A DNA stretch of 64,000 nucleotides from Exobasidium rhododendri (Eukaryota > Basidiomycota > Exobasidiomycetes > Exobasidiales > Exobasidiaceae). The notes beneath the pieces are model-generated. The model was given only the letters and a program-made list of their open reading frames with translations. It was not told the origin of the DNA and ran no database searches. Location: positions 1,302,001-1,366,000 of the forward strand of contig CP110630.1 in assembly GCA_026210745.1 (NCBI GenBank). The letters are read 5' to 3'. The translations under genes and the position numbers were made by a program. This document shows positions 20,616 through 46,183 of the stretch, one piece after another (the stretch's first letter is position 1; each line of letters opens with the position of its first letter).

Positions 20616-21047
20616 CTTGCTGACTATGTCTTGAGAAAAAGAGTCATCTGCCTTTTTTGAAATACGTCCAATCTAAACACCAGTCTCGCGATGAAGGAGG
20701 AGAGATCTCCCTTAATTTGGTAGGGAATTGGACGAAAAAAAGCCAAAAATATGGGCCGACACGGGATCGAACCGAGGATCTTACGGAAACATCAACGAGA
20801 GCTAACGCTTGGGCTGGAATCGTATGCATTACCACTATGCTATCAACCCTAACATCTGTGGAGGCAAGTCTAAGTACATATTAACCTGCGCTCATCTTTT
20901 GCAATGCTTTATATAGAGGAACCTTTTTTTATTCCGAATTTTTATTGTGACACTTGCGCTAGTCACGAAGACAATAATGGTTCTTCCTCTTTGACGAACC
21001 TCAATCACAGCAGGCAAGGGTACAAGAGGAACATCTGGCTGGCTACA
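20616..21047. other. Intergenic region containing the tRNA gene
   Basis: About 430 bp between the divergent eIF2B delta and GAR transformylase genes. Apart from the tRNA at 20753-20849 there is an AT-rich stretch (20920-20950) ahead of the next start; no protein gene is seen. Confidence 0.4.
20753..20849 (-). tRNA. tRNA-Trp (anticodon CCA) with a 26-nt anticodon-loop intron
   Basis: The minus strand folds as a tRNA: acceptor stem GGGTTGA with TCGGCCC (two G-U pairs), D arm GCAT/ATGC with loop AGTGGTA, anticodon stem starting TACGA and loop TTCCAG, and T arm around GGTTCGATCCC. The A box TAGCATAGTGG and B box GGTTCGATCCC fit RNA polymerase III consensus, and T-runs follow the 3' end (at about 20746-20733 on the minus strand). 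Removing 26 nt after position 37 leaves a 71-nt body. Positions 34-36 read CCA, so tryptophan. Two weak points are an A31-C39 mismatch in the anticodon stem and one U-U mismatch in the T stem; a mildly degenerate copy is therefore possible. Confidence 0.75.
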
Positions 21048-41869: not shown

Positions 41870-42167
41870 CTCTGCATCGAAAGCGTGCGTAGGCTTCCCT
41901 TTAGCAAATCCGGCTTGAGGTTACGAGAGCTCTGTTCCTTCGAAGACCGAGCGATGTGAGGTATGTGCCCGTTGTCCCCCTCGCTTTGTGCAATTTGGAC
42001 CTTCTCTTCCTTTCTTGGACTTTAAGTGTCGGATACGATGCAAGAAACAAAACAAAGTTTCTGCAGGTCCAGAAGTCAGTCAACAGTTCAAAAATTCTGA
42101 AAAATTCACATTTAAGTGGAGAGCCTCTTTGCCAGACTCAAACTCTGACACGTGACAGGAAGTAATA
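41870..42167. other. Upstream flank of PSY4, ahead of the transposon
   Basis: About 300 bp between the PSY4 start and the left end of the inverted-repeat element. No gene is seen. It should include the PSY4 promoter. Confidence 0.35.
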
Positions 42168-42197
42168 CCATGCCGGATCACTATTAAATACACGTGA
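42168..42197 (+). repeat. Left terminal inverted repeat
   Basis: Thirty bases starting CCATGCCGG and ending CACGTGA; 29 of 30 positions match the reverse complement of 43563-43592. It is preceded by TA at 42166-42167. Confidence 0.88.
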
Positions 42198-42963
42198 GTT
42201 TTTCCACCACTAGTGAATACGCCGTGTACGACATGCTGTATCACCATGACCGCTTGTCCAATGTAAAGTACCATCTAATGAAATAGAATTGTATGAAAAT
42301 TCTGAAAAAACTTGTTTGAAACAAAAAGAGTGAAACATGCCGTTTTGAGTGAGCTGCTCTAAGTGTGAAATTTGGCCTATTGTGAAAAAGGCGCAAATTT
42401 GGCTTCAGGAAACCTGCAGTCTGGAGGGTGTATCGATGGCCGCCACAATGCTACCATTGCATTGCTCAATGAGCTTGAGATACTGATACATTGTGCAAAA
42501 GTATAGTATTATATATATGGGGTGTGAAAAAAAATGAGAAGATACATATAAAAGAGAGGAGATATAGAGGTATTGAGCCACTATGCCGGAAGGGTCCGAT
42601 ACTTCAGAAAAGTCATGGTCACGGCACAAAGTTTATGCAATTCTAGCTCTGCTGCCTCAGCGCAACGGCTTCAAGCTCCAGTAAGTTGAGGGTATCACTA
42701 ATAGTAATATATCTAGCACTCTATTCATTTAGAATGACCGATTGTTCTCAATAAGGGTGTGTCGGCACACATTCCTCAACCTCACTTTAGTTGACCCCAA
42801 AAAACAGATTCAACTTCAATTATCTCCTTTTTTTGTCACAACAATGTAGTTTGAGACTTAGGAGATGTTTTAGCTGTATATCAGAACAATGTATGCTAGT
42901 AATACTATTTGCCCTAAAAGAGCCTGCAGATCACACAATTGAGCTTTGTAGATGGTAAAATGG

Positions 42964-43013
42964 TCAAATTTGGGTCATTATGGCAGTCTCACGGTCCTAA
43001 AATGACCCAATTT
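42964..43013. repeat. Imperfect hairpin inside the transposon
   Basis: AAATTTGGGTCATT and, 22 nt later, AATGACCCAATTT can pair over about 13 bp with one bulge. It lies in the middle of the AT-rich element. No function is evident. Confidence 0.6.
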
Positions 43014-43562
43014 TGCTATCTTATCTGATAGACGTTGTGTTGAGTTCATACTATACAAACATATGCAAAATTAGTGGGAAAAAAGATCCAATGCTTAAAA
43101 ACAACCAGTTATTAATCATGCTGACAAGTAGAAGGCCTTTGTAGCATTTCATGGTCATATTTAATGGTTCAGCCGATTAGCATGATTCTGGGCTTGAATC
43201 ACTCCAAAAGCAATTTTGTACCTAGTAAAAGTTGTTCATTACTATCTTCTATATTGTTTTCTGCTTTTAAATTTGTATATTATTAATTAGAGTATGCTAC
43301 AAAACAAGATACCGCTCATACCATGGTGCAAAATTTCTAAAAAATGATGGCGTTTGGTGTATTCAACTGTGGTCACTTTTCACGCAATGCTAGCAACATA
43401 CAGAACAATTTCAATCATAGGACAAGTACCTCATAAAATGCTTTTCATCTCTCAATCTCTCGGGTGTGGTTAGAATGCATGCTATTATACTCATCTATGT
43501 ACAGAAATGGCTCAAAAAGGGGTCAGGAGAGCGTCAATCGGGCGTCGTTCGCGTTCCCAAAA

Positions 43563-43592
43563 TCACGTGTATTTACTAGTGATCCGGCATGG
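43563..43592 (-). repeat. Right terminal inverted repeat
   Basis: Reverse complement of the left repeat with one mismatch, followed by TA at 43593-43594. It contains an ATG at 43589-43591 that is in frame with the downstream splicing-factor gene. Confidence 0.88.
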
Positions 43593-43702
43593 TACTCTCC
43601 ACCAAGCTTGGATGCTGCTCACTCTGGAGCCTTTACCTTGAGGGTGACTTGCGTCCAGGACTGACGCCTACTCCGGCATTCTGCTGGGACGACAACGTCA
43701 GC

Positions 43703-46183
43703 ATGAATGACACGGAGAGGGGTGATAGAGTGGGTCCCACCTTCATCAAGAAGAGAAGCAAGCTGCGTGGCATGGCTTCGGCTGCAACCGCCTCCCTACG
43801 AAATAGTGATCTGAGAAGCAATGAGCATGCTGTTACTGAAGATGAAGCAGGACCGAAAGACTTGGGGCAGCAGGAGATGGCAGAGGAGAGCATAGCGGTG
43901 AAAAGGACAGCTGGAATCGGCGCGAGAGGTAGGGGTGGTGTCAAAGACAATAAGCTCAAGAAGGACAGAAGTTCCGTATCGACTGCCTTGAGCTTTGGTG
44001 ATGATGGGGAAGAGCCGGCGTTTCAGCTGAAGAGGAGTGCTCTAGCACAGATGAGCAGGATCCCCATACCAGAGGCTCCGTCAGAACGACTACCCGAAAC
44101 ACTCGAACAAGCAAGCATAGCCGAGACATCAAACAGATACAATGCAAGTGCGTTAGCAGCTCTTAAAGCCTCTACTCCGGCACGAAGGCAAGCGGTAGAG
44201 GAAGATGGTGACCTCGACCTGGCCCATCGAGAGATGATCGATCCGACCACACAGATAGACGGAGATGGCAACAACCTCACACGTCTAAAATTTGGGGCTG
44301 ATTTCACTCACGATGGTATTCCCAATGAAGCGCTTGTGACTGCTGCAAAGGAACGAAGGAGGAGAGCGGCAGAAGAGCATCGAGACGTGAACCGCAGTGA
44401 CGATTTCATATCCTTGCGAGATACAAGGAAAGATCATAGCCCACATCCTGAGTCGAGACTGCAAAGAGAAGAGGATGATCTGGGGTCTGGAGAGGAGGAA
44501 TTTGCCGAATTCACAGGTGCGACGGAAAGGGTAGCACTTGGCAAAAAGGCTATCAATGAAGCCAAAAGGCGAGAGCGAGAGGAAATGAAGGAAGCAATGG
44601 ACTTGGATAATGACAGCGACGACAGCGGAAAGGAATGGGAAAGGGCACAGATGGGGAGGATGGAAGGAATGGGCTCGAGAAAGCAAATCGAGAAGAGAGA
44701 AAAGTCGCCCTTCCGACCTGCTCTCATTCCGATGACGGCACCTTTGCCGACCCTTACATCCACATCAGCTCGACTAATTCCACGGATTGCAGCACTCGAG
44801 TCATCCATCAAGAGCCATGGCCAGGTAATTGATGATGCAGGCAGACAACTGGCGCAGCTCGAAAATGACGAAAAGCGCAGCAAAGCAGAGCTTGTGCTTG
44901 CGGGAGAGAAGGAAGCCTGGTTTCGTGAATTGGAGGAATTTATCTCGAGCTTGTCAACTTTCTTAGAGGTGAAAGTGCCTCAGCTGGAGAAGATTGAGAA
45001 TGATTGGAGAAGGCTATTGGCGAAGAGAGCCATGCTGACAGGAGCAGCAAGGGCACACTCAATGACAGATGAGGCTTGCCTGTTTCACGGAGTCCCTGCT
45101 AGTAGTCTAGTACCTTCCTCCAACACGAAACCGGATGACATCGACTATGAGGGGGAAGACATCATACCACCAAATGATGAAGGTGGTCCGCTCAGTGTTG
45201 TCCGGGAGACCAGACGTCTAGCCGCTGGGCGAGACGTGGACAGCTTGACACCTGCCGATGAGTCTGCCTTGGAAGTCGCTCAAAAGGAAATACTTCGACG
45301 ATTAGGTCAAATGTTCGATGACGTCAAGGCCCCCGAATTCTTTGATCCAGCAGCTCGAGTGGACGCCAAATTGCATCCTTCGTCTCTGCTTGCTCGCTTT
45401 CATCAGTGGAGGACTCTGTATCCGAGTGAATATGCTAATGCTTGGGGCGGTCTGACCTTGGCTGATATTTGGGACTTTTGGGTCCGAAAAGAATTATGTT
45501 GCTGGGACCTACCAAAAGCGGGTCATCAAGCGTTGGACAGCTTCAAGTGGTACAAAAATCTTACTCACTACTCAGCCGTCGGATCCAGCAAGCCAAAAGG
45601 GGAGGGAGGATCAGGGACGACAGCGATAGAGAGCATCGGCGGGGATGACGAGGCAATATCGCACGTCGTTTGCAACACCTTGATTACGCAAATCATCGTC
45701 CTTTGCGAACAGCGCGTATTCGATCCCTGGAATGCAGTGGATGCAAAAAGCATGTCGGAAATACTGGAACAGATTGGCTACATCTTAGAGCGGGACCATC
45801 TGAGATATCGATCACTGGTCTCTTCCTTTTTGAACATCTTTGGGTCGCACATCACGCCGTTGGTAGACAGCATGACTTCTCCTCCCGTCGTTGCGCCTCC
45901 ACCCTTTGATCCCCGCAGCCCCATTGCTCTGCTGTCGTATCTCGATAGAGTCAAGACCCTCTTCTTTAACATGTTACTGCTCAATCGTTTTGTGCCACCG
46001 AGCGAAAAGCCTTTCTATCTCGACATGATCGATCGTCTAGTCGGTACACTGATCTGGAACTTGTTGAGTAAGGCAAAGGACACAGGAGGAAAGGAGATCG
46101 CTCGGTCGATTCTCACTCGATGCGCAAGGACGAACGTACTACAGGAGGACGTTCGAGCAAGACTGGCAGCAATGAGCCAGTGA
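43703..46183 (+). CDS. GCFC-domain spliceosomal protein (PAXBP1/GCFC1 type)
   Basis: A single exon of 826 codons from the ATG at 43703, within an open frame that starts at an ATG at 43589. From 43703 it reads MNDTERGDRVGPTFIKKRSK, typical of the short basic N-terminal motif of GCFC proteins. The middle is charged and disordered, with a coiled coil (LIPRIAALESSIKSHGQVID...). The C-terminal GCFC region has LLARFHQWRTLYPSEYANAW and WDFWVRKELCCWDL, matching the GC-rich sequence DNA-binding factor-like domain. Homologues (PAXBP1; yeast Ntr2 shares part) act in splicing and spliceosome disassembly. The upstream ATG at 43589 lies inside the transposon's right terminal repeat and would add 38 unrelated residues (MVLSTKLGCCSLWSLYLEGD...), so 43703 is preferred. 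Confidence 0.85.
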   Translation: MNDTERGDRVGPTFIKKRSKLRGMASAATASLRNSDLRSNEHAVTEDEAGPKDLGQQEMAEESIAVKRTAGIGARGRGGVKDNKLKKDRSSVSTALSFGDDGEEPAFQLKRSALAQMSRIPIPEAPSERLPETLEQASIAETSNRYNASALAALKASTPARRQAVEEDGDLDLAHREMIDPTTQIDGDGNNLTRLKFGADFTHDGIPNEALVTAAKERRRRAAEEHRDVNRSDDFISLRDTRKDHSPHPESRLQREEDDLGSGEEEFAEFTGATERVALGKKAINEAKRREREEMKEAMDLDNDSDDSGKEWERAQMGRMEGMGSRKQIEKREKSPFRPALIPMTAPLPTLTSTSARLIPRIAALESSIKSHGQVIDDAGRQLAQLENDEKRSKAELVLAGEKEAWFRELEEFISSLSTFLEVKVPQLEKIENDWRRLLAKRAMLTGAARAHSMTDEACLFHGVPASSLVPSSNTKPDDIDYEGEDIIPPNDEGGPLSVVRETRRLAAGRDVDSLTPADESALEVAQKEILRRLGQMFDDVKAPEFFDPAARVDAKLHPSSLLARFHQWRTLYPSEYANAWGGLTLADIWDFWVRKELCCWDLPKAGHQALDSFKWYKNLTHYSAVGSSKPKGEGGSGTTAIESIGGDDEAISHVVCNTLITQIIVLCEQRVFDPWNAVDAKSMSEILEQIGYILERDHLRYRSLVSSFLNIFGSHITPLVDSMTSPPVVAPPPFDPRSPIALLSYLDRVKTLFFNMLLLNRFVPPSEKPFYLDMIDRLVGTLIWNLLSKAKDTGGKEIARSILTRCARTNVLQEDVRARLAAMSQ

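Follow-up and report, generated by a model that had tools for sequence, protein, structure and literature searches.

A mosaic family of non-autonomous DNA transposons with matched ends, probably pogo/Fot-like, in Exobasidium rhododendri

We analyzed a window of 64,000 nucleotides, positions 1,302,001 to 1,366,000 of contig CP110630.1, from the basidiomycete Exobasidium rhododendri CBS 101457, a fungus described as parasitic on Rhododendron in the accessible part of PMC13010171. Window positions 42168..43592 hold a 1425-bp element belonging to a family of non-autonomous DNA transposons. Its copies share outer arms with two longer relatives, A1 and A2, which carry a transposase gene between those arms, and they combine matched ends with a mosaic interior. 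The parts of the window copy are listed below, with identities or the basis for each call.

42166..42167, no strand: left TA of the target-site duplication (read in the sequence and found in copy scoring)
42168..42197, plus strand: left terminal inverted repeat, end type I (29 nt identical to the A1 left end)
42168..42601, plus strand: left arm in common with A1 and A2 (83% to A1, 80% to A2; outer 195 bp 96% to A1)
42374..42428, plus strand: left exchange block, approximate limits (93% to A2; 35-44% to A1 and most other copies)
42602..43338, plus strand: interior cassette of about 740 bp, in place of the A1/A2 transposase gene (arm comparison and genome probe)
42956..43023, plus strand: imperfect palindrome in the interior (self match 69.6% over 69 nt)
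43340..43353, plus strand: motif AAAAATGATGGCGT, where similarity to A1 resumes (genome-wide exact search)
43354..43505, plus strand: right exchange block, approximate limits, one of three alleles (54% to A1, 51% to A2, 92-94% to the seven other copies with this allele)
43563..43592, minus strand: right terminal inverted repeat, end type I (inverted-arm detection, genome end search and end typing)
43593..43594, no strand: right TA of the target-site duplication (read in the sequence and found in copy scoring)

A first-pass annotation of this DNA had proposed a 1425-bp block with inverted repeats matching at 29 of 30 positions and TA on each side. Direct reading and an unguided detection of inverted arms both returned this structure; the detected arms, 42166-42201 and 43559-43594, are 36 nt long including the TA flanks and 94% complementary, and the single difference within the 30-bp terminal inverted repeats is T/G. 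The low GC content that had been noted also held, at 38.3% in the element compared to 50.1% in the remaining window, with the interior as its most AT-rich part. As claimed, no transposase-like frame was found among the open frames of the element, the longest of which runs 75 aa from stop to stop.

The same annotation had suggested a non-autonomous transposon family, to be sought with the end sequence and with the whole element, and genome copies, TA flanks and longer relatives with the same ends all support the suggestion. With up to three mismatches allowed, the 32-nt end has 16 matches in the genome, compared to 0 for a reversed-pattern control. The whole-element search gave 22 copies close to full length (1412-1426 bp), counting that of the window; in two of them a nested insertion interrupts one end, and these were trimmed at that point. 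An additional, more divergent copy of 1426 bp at C1:9938 brings the 1.4-kb form to 23 copies, 22 besides that of the window. Also in the family are a pair of 651-bp copies, each on its own contig, one decayed copy (C1:1633784), A1 (C1:5452024-5454933, 2910 bp) and A2 (from C3:1412727, 2894 bp). These 28 places, less the decayed copy, make up about 0.23% of a compact 17.6-Mb genome; copy counts are lower bounds, since the search scores only the best candidates. Consistent with the description of the family as undescribed, no account of it appeared in the literature searched on Exobasidium, the species and strain, and Ustilaginomycotina elements, a search with most subscription papers outside its scope.

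TA stands on both sides of all 25 scorable copies, the decayed copy and the two copies cut by nested insertions (3 of the 28 places) being left out of the scoring. The base beyond the TA is not fixed at these 25 sites, so the duplication is not TAA, and no target preference beyond TA is obvious among them. The exception on targeting is that two insertions sit in the ends of other copies, for which uniform placement gives about 2.7e-6, a rough figure calculated after the cases had been seen. Copy C1:4777369 lies within the left end of copy C1:4778795, and the 651-bp copy C2:2099819 lies within the right end of copy C2:2098414. When the flanks of each nested insertion are joined with one TA, they form an uninterrupted type III end, an end that is intact in 8 left and 6 right termini among the 23 copies (uncut ends of both nested hosts counted). 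Because the nested cases restore a type III end with one TA, they show insertion with TA duplication. The earlier annotation had named a second copy or an empty site as what its proposal depended on; copies exist, and the one-TA empty sites are paralogous ones, not sites in relatives.

The 1.4-kb form is noncoding, has inverted repeats and a target-site duplication, and occurs in repeated copies of one size, all of which are marks of miniature inverted-repeat transposable elements (MITEs). The usual size limit for MITEs is below about 600-800 bp. Only the two 651-bp copies fit this limit, and because the main form, at 1412-1426 bp, exceeds it, we use the name non-autonomous element and not MITE.

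Between their arms, A1 and A2 carry a gene on the minus strand. Our gene model for A1 is open and has five exons, encoding 582 aa, with introns of 63, 111, 165 and 82 bp, all GT...AG. Its product has three domains that score above curated cutoffs (DDE_1 at 50.9 bits with a cutoff of 22, HTH_Tnp_Tc5 at 27.3 and HTH_psq at 23.6) and a catalytic triad of D176, D294 and D330, with 35 residues between the last two (DD35D). A homology search with the A1 protein returned six proteins over threshold, one of which is A1's own record. The A1 protein is at most 23% identical to each of six other aligned proteins; D294 and D330 are invariant in all seven, and D176 aligns with D in all five other proteins that have a residue there (P0005 has none). 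Among solved structures, the first 361 residues had no sequence match up to E 1. In A2, a stop codon lies within the stretch matching the first exon of A1. A third, short fragment at C2:362093, beside a 465-aa frame, is 63% identical to part of the A1 transposase, and its first catalytic residue appears by eye to be changed. Also by eye, intron 2 of the A1 model (L030 4841-4951) contains a 40-nt palindrome.

A full-length relative with the same ends and a DDE/D transposase, which had been suggested as something to look for, thus exists in A1. Tc1/mariner transposases in the narrow sense have a DD34E/DD34D-type triad and no CENPB-type domain. A1 does not fit this description, having DD35D with HTH_Tnp_Tc5/CENPB-type domains; of the proposed Tc1/mariner-type TA element, the TA duplication stands and the affiliation is refined to a pogo/Fot-like, DD35D partner. 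A1 combines DDE_1 and DD35D, the pair of HTH_psq and HTH_Tnp_Tc5, and TA duplication, in line with pogo/Fot-like elements, whose target-site duplication is TA, TAA or TAAA; the 1.4-kb copies carry no transposase. The repeats of about 30 bp, matching at 27-29 of 29 positions within each of the 25 scored copies, fit the published pogo type 1 (up to 40 bp) and not the usual Fot type. We label the family pogo/Fot-like rather than Fot, an assignment based on domains, triad, duplication and repeats.

According to the accessible text of PMC7386202, pogo is a superfamily apart from Tc1/mariner within the ITm (IS630-Tc1-mariner) group. The same text reports that almost all Fot and Fot-like transposases are DD35D, with elements of 1.20-5.20 kb and proteins of 300-977 aa, ranges that include the 2.9 kb and 582 aa of A1. 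It also reports that most Fot elements duplicate TAA, naming TA solely for the FotC and FotD clades and for 50 Fot-like elements, and that Fot and Fot-like repeats are mostly 40-60 bp; by these accounts the present family differs in its TA, a minority state in Fot proper, and in its repeats of about 30 bp.

We distinguished four end types, which diverge after CCATGC. Both ends are of one type in all 25 scored copies (8 of type I, 8 of type II, 7 of type III and 2 of type IV). Shuffling the ends gave a mean of 7.2 matched copies and a maximum of 16 in 10000 shuffles, although near-identical copies are not independent, so that the permutation does not yield a strict probability. The outer 195 bp of A1, which has type I ends, are 96-98% identical to those of 7 non-autonomous type I copies and 85-89% identical to those of 14 type II/III copies (C1:4778795, with its left end cut, was left out). 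For the type IV copy at C1:9938 the same comparison gives 94% to A2 and 75% to A1. Columns 440-1000 of the alignment, within the interior, are 84-92% identical between C1:9938 and the other 22 copies, and the first 60 columns only 63-70%. As the interior is alike where the ends are unlike, all four end types enclose largely the same interior.

Each copy of the 1.4-kb form consists of a left arm, an interior of about 740 bp and a right arm that starts at the motif AAAAAATGATGGCGT; about 435 bp on the left and 253-257 bp on the right are common to A1/A2 and the 1.4-kb copies. The 14-nt core AAAAATGATGGCGT has 27 exact places in the genome, all within the family: 21 in 1.4-kb copies, 3 in A1 (before the start codon, in intron 3 and in intron 4) and 3 in A2. 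Two motifs face each other across the replaced segment, CACTACGCCA on the left and TGGCGTAGTG (part of AAAAAATGATGGCGTAGTG) on the right. The exact pair flanks the transposase segment in both A1 and A2 and the interior in 11 of the 23 1.4-kb copies; two more copies have the pair at one right mismatch, nine have the left motif only, and the window copy has neither. In the 64-kb window the 10-mer has no exact match and four matches with one mismatch. The 651-bp form is a plain deletion form.

Several candidate explanations of the interior were tried and rejected. Genome-wide, a 531-bp interior probe derived from C1:3791694 hit the 23 copies of the 1.4-kb form and nothing else, giving no sign of a host origin. 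A coding interior is contradicted by the longest frames, which vary in place and length and exceed 100 aa in only 5 of the 23 copies (longest 141 aa), the window copy not among them. The palindrome falls in the best conserved stretch of the element, where 50-column conservation reaches 0.97 at column 800, the top of all windows; considered as an RNA structure, it varies little between copies, and no Rfam match was found in 42100-43700 at E up to 1. RIP-like mutation (repeat-induced point mutation) as the cause of the low GC content is not supported by the two-state columns (154 A/G, 133 C/T and 172 transversions), for which an alignment of copies gives no direction of change.

Instead of captured or unrelated DNA, the interior could be a decayed transposase gene that came from a sister lineage now lost. 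We consider this possible but doubtful. The interior has the same limits as the transposase segment, and the stretch just before the right motif weakly resembles the surroundings of the motif in A1 intron 3 (75.6% over 41 bp including the motif, E 0.03). However, a tblastn search of the A1 transposase against the 23 interiors gave a single chance-level match (E 5.8), and in the copies compared the outer 195 bp have kept 75-98% identity to A1; a gene lost simultaneously should then remain visible too.

The copies are strongly mosaic, and internal pieces have clearly been exchanged between them. Overall identity among the 22 copies is 78-100%, and windowed comparison finds stretches of about 50% between stretches of >90%. 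The left block of the window copy (about 55 bp) is 93% identical to A2 and likewise to C1:9938, and against C1:3791694, the sole copy so tested, its alignment scores no better than chance (z 0.9, 108 of 500 shuffles equally good). On the right, the window copy's block allele and that of C1:3791694 are distantly homologous (z 4.5, 0 of 500 shuffles). Block alleles also cross end types: in A1, ends of type I go with the right-block allele otherwise seen beside types II and III, and in C3:3498628 type II ends go with the type I group's allele. We tested for recombination with 367 informative sites in the 22 copies, leaving out C1:9938 and 40 columns per end. Site incompatibility rises from 0.11 (<25 bp) to 0.42 (200-400 bp), then flattens and declines to 0.33 at distances beyond 800 bp. 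The pairwise homoplasy index (PHI) was 0.184, compared to 0.354 (sd 0.006) after permutation, and none of 2000 permutations was as low. The Hudson-Kaplan count of 84 is rough, being inflated by recurrent mutation.

These data bear on the explanation that the 1.4-kb form was derived separately for each end type, by deletion from an autonomous element of that type, so that the mosaic would reflect unequal divergence. Type I and type IV ends do each have a transposase-bearing relative with nearly the same outer 195 bp, and the 651-bp copies arose by plain deletion. Nevertheless, the interior is common to all four end types and absent from both A1 and A2, the recombination permutation is extreme, and the block of about 55 bp drops to 36% identity between the window copy and C1:5155618 after two 100-column windows at 97%. 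Independent derivation is, in our judgment, improbable.

We also observed a second DDE_1 transposon family, family B, with six 1902-bp copies (C1:147470, C1:5260520, C2:3659714, C2:4581194, C2:4893171 and C3:2761381; L058-L063) that have TA flanks and inverted repeats starting ACAGTAGAACCTCC. A 519-aa transposase frame was read in L058, to which the five other copies are 99.95-100% identical, and the family was probably recently active, judging by these identities. This makes family B conceivable as the mover of the 1.4-kb elements; its ends, however, have no meaningful similarity to those of the 1.4-kb family (best local match 8 nt), and we regard the idea as very unlikely. Equally slight is the chance that the mosaic is an assembly or haplotype-collapse artefact: repeats of 80-90% identity are prone to misassembly, and we judged from the assembly, not from reads, but the copies lie in 5-7 Mb contigs, flanked by distinct sequence and by intact TA pairs, near-identical pairs agree in their mosaic state although they lie far apart, and 25 of 25 matched ends are unexpected of random chimeras.

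Considering all of these observations, we hold it very likely that the window block is a non-autonomous pogo/Fot-like element, moved in trans, that underwent a 740-bp interior swap and later internal conversion with matched ends kept. A transposase supplied in trans would recognize the element ends; we infer that A1 is active, most likely encodes this enzyme and moves the window copy, its ends being of the same type I. The enzyme would cut at the ends, and the element would insert at TA, with the TA duplicated. The 1.4-kb form may have arisen when the transposase gene between the arms was replaced by the 740-bp sequence, probably via faulty break repair. Breaks inside elements would later have been repaired by copying internal tracts from one dispersed copy to another. 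Conversion tracts whose two breakpoints are internal would replace the interior of the recipient and keep its ends as a matched pair, so that interiors and subterminal blocks would be traded between the four end types. Internal gene conversion accounts best for the combination of a mosaic with matched ends.

Several points weigh against this reading. Selection, or conversion between the two ends of one copy, could also be the source of matched ends. The NCBI record of the A1 product is a 364-aa 'hypothetical protein' that follows a different exon model and covers part of the product. The right arm of the window copy is only 69% identical to that of A1, compared to 88% for C1:3791694; columns 1000-1180 of C1:9938, the last part of the interior, are only 59-65% identical to other copies; and the 531-bp probe found no origin for the interior in the genome. 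End types II or III occur in 15 of the 25 scored copies, and a 269-aa piece of the A1 transposase matched only A1, A2, the C2:362093 fragment and short stretches in the copies themselves; that search therefore revealed no partner bearing ends of type II or III. Either the A1 enzyme is able to work on ends of other types, or the actual source is absent or has diverged too far. The closest pairs of copies, moreover, are of type II.

Those pairs are informative about age. The type II copies C1:508591 and C1:651618 differ at a single aligned position in about 1425, and the 651-bp pair differs at 2 positions in 651; a type for which no autonomous partner was detected has therefore moved recently. 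The window copy had been described as recently inserted, which our data do not support. Its nearest relative is 91% identical, and it carries 15 near-private substitutions, compared to 0 to 5 in 17 of the other 22 copies (a count that is automatically low for copies with a near-identical sister); by both measures it is not among the young copies. Near-perfect ends do not date an insertion, since copies of the same end type have similar ends.

An extension of the favored reading, which we put forward as speculation and consider unlikely on balance, is that matched end pairs with exchangeable interiors, and conversion tracts bounded by CACTACGCCA and by TGGCGTAGTG within AAAAAATGATGGCGTAGTG, move the cassette between transposase specificities. 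If true, a non-autonomous lineage would outlive each autonomous partner by changing its ends, not by fresh deletion.

Parts of this reasoning, by analogy, have already been published, that on interior swaps for Galileo and that on interiors unrelated to the master element for mosquito P-MITEs. The P-MITEs of Anopheles gambiae are similar in that they have the ends of a transposase-bearing master and an interior unrelated to it, as far as the accessible text of PMC1562414 goes; sizes there range over 205-2450 bp, repair with an ectopic template is the mechanism its authors propose, and the origin of non-autonomous interiors is called controversial. They differ in host, in superfamily (P) and in their 8-bp duplications, and P-MITE families lack significant interior identity, whereas the E. 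rhododendri interior is common to four end types. Galileo of Drosophila mojavensis, in the portion of PMC3573991 available, likewise has subfamilies defined by inverted repeats and chimeras with the ends of one subfamily and the interior of another, attributed to exchange with both breakpoints within the element. Its repeats are long, however, and twelve copies have two different ends, unlike the 25 of 25 matched copies with repeats of about 30 nt here. For the Tc1-Mariner elements and MITEs of Sclerotinia sclerotiorum, the accessible part of PMC4188875 reports no interior swapping, and its MITEs are shorter than the 1.4-kb form.

The window copy lies next to a host gene:

43703..46183, plus strand: splicing-factor homologue with an NTR2 domain (GCFC-type) (PF15458 NTR2, E 1.3e-42; alignment with relatives)

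The start codon at 43703 is the one supported by relatives, 110 bp from the last base of the element. The open frame as a whole spans 43589-46183, with its first ATG inside the right inverted repeat, and the database protein P0007 starts 23 codons downstream of 43703. A plasmid collection searched with the neighbouring host protein gave no match. At the C1:508591 insertion, a 548-aa frame (L020 371-2017) takes its last few codons and stop from the element end. Across the family, frames of at least 150 aa enter the element at 1 of the 28 places and start or end within 26 bp at 4 more (one beside a nested copy), and the median distance from a family place to the nearest such frame is 174 bp; 39% of the 2244 TA sites in the window fall in frames of that size. 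Gene avoidance by the family is only suggested by these figures, as the two measures differ in kind and split genes can be missed. Elsewhere in the window, a tRNA gene on the minus strand at 20752-20849 scores 45.2 bits, over the Rfam cutoff, and its length of 98 nt suggests an intron; ARAGORN with bacterial settings did not report it.

At this locus, then, a 1.4-kb AT-rich element ends 110 bp ahead of the probable start codon in the gene for a splicing-factor homologue. With two transposase-bearing copies, four end types and one common interior in a 17.6-Mb genome, E. rhododendri makes it directly testable how choosy a transposase is about its ends, and the same genome makes it testable whether non-autonomous lineages persist by end swapping.
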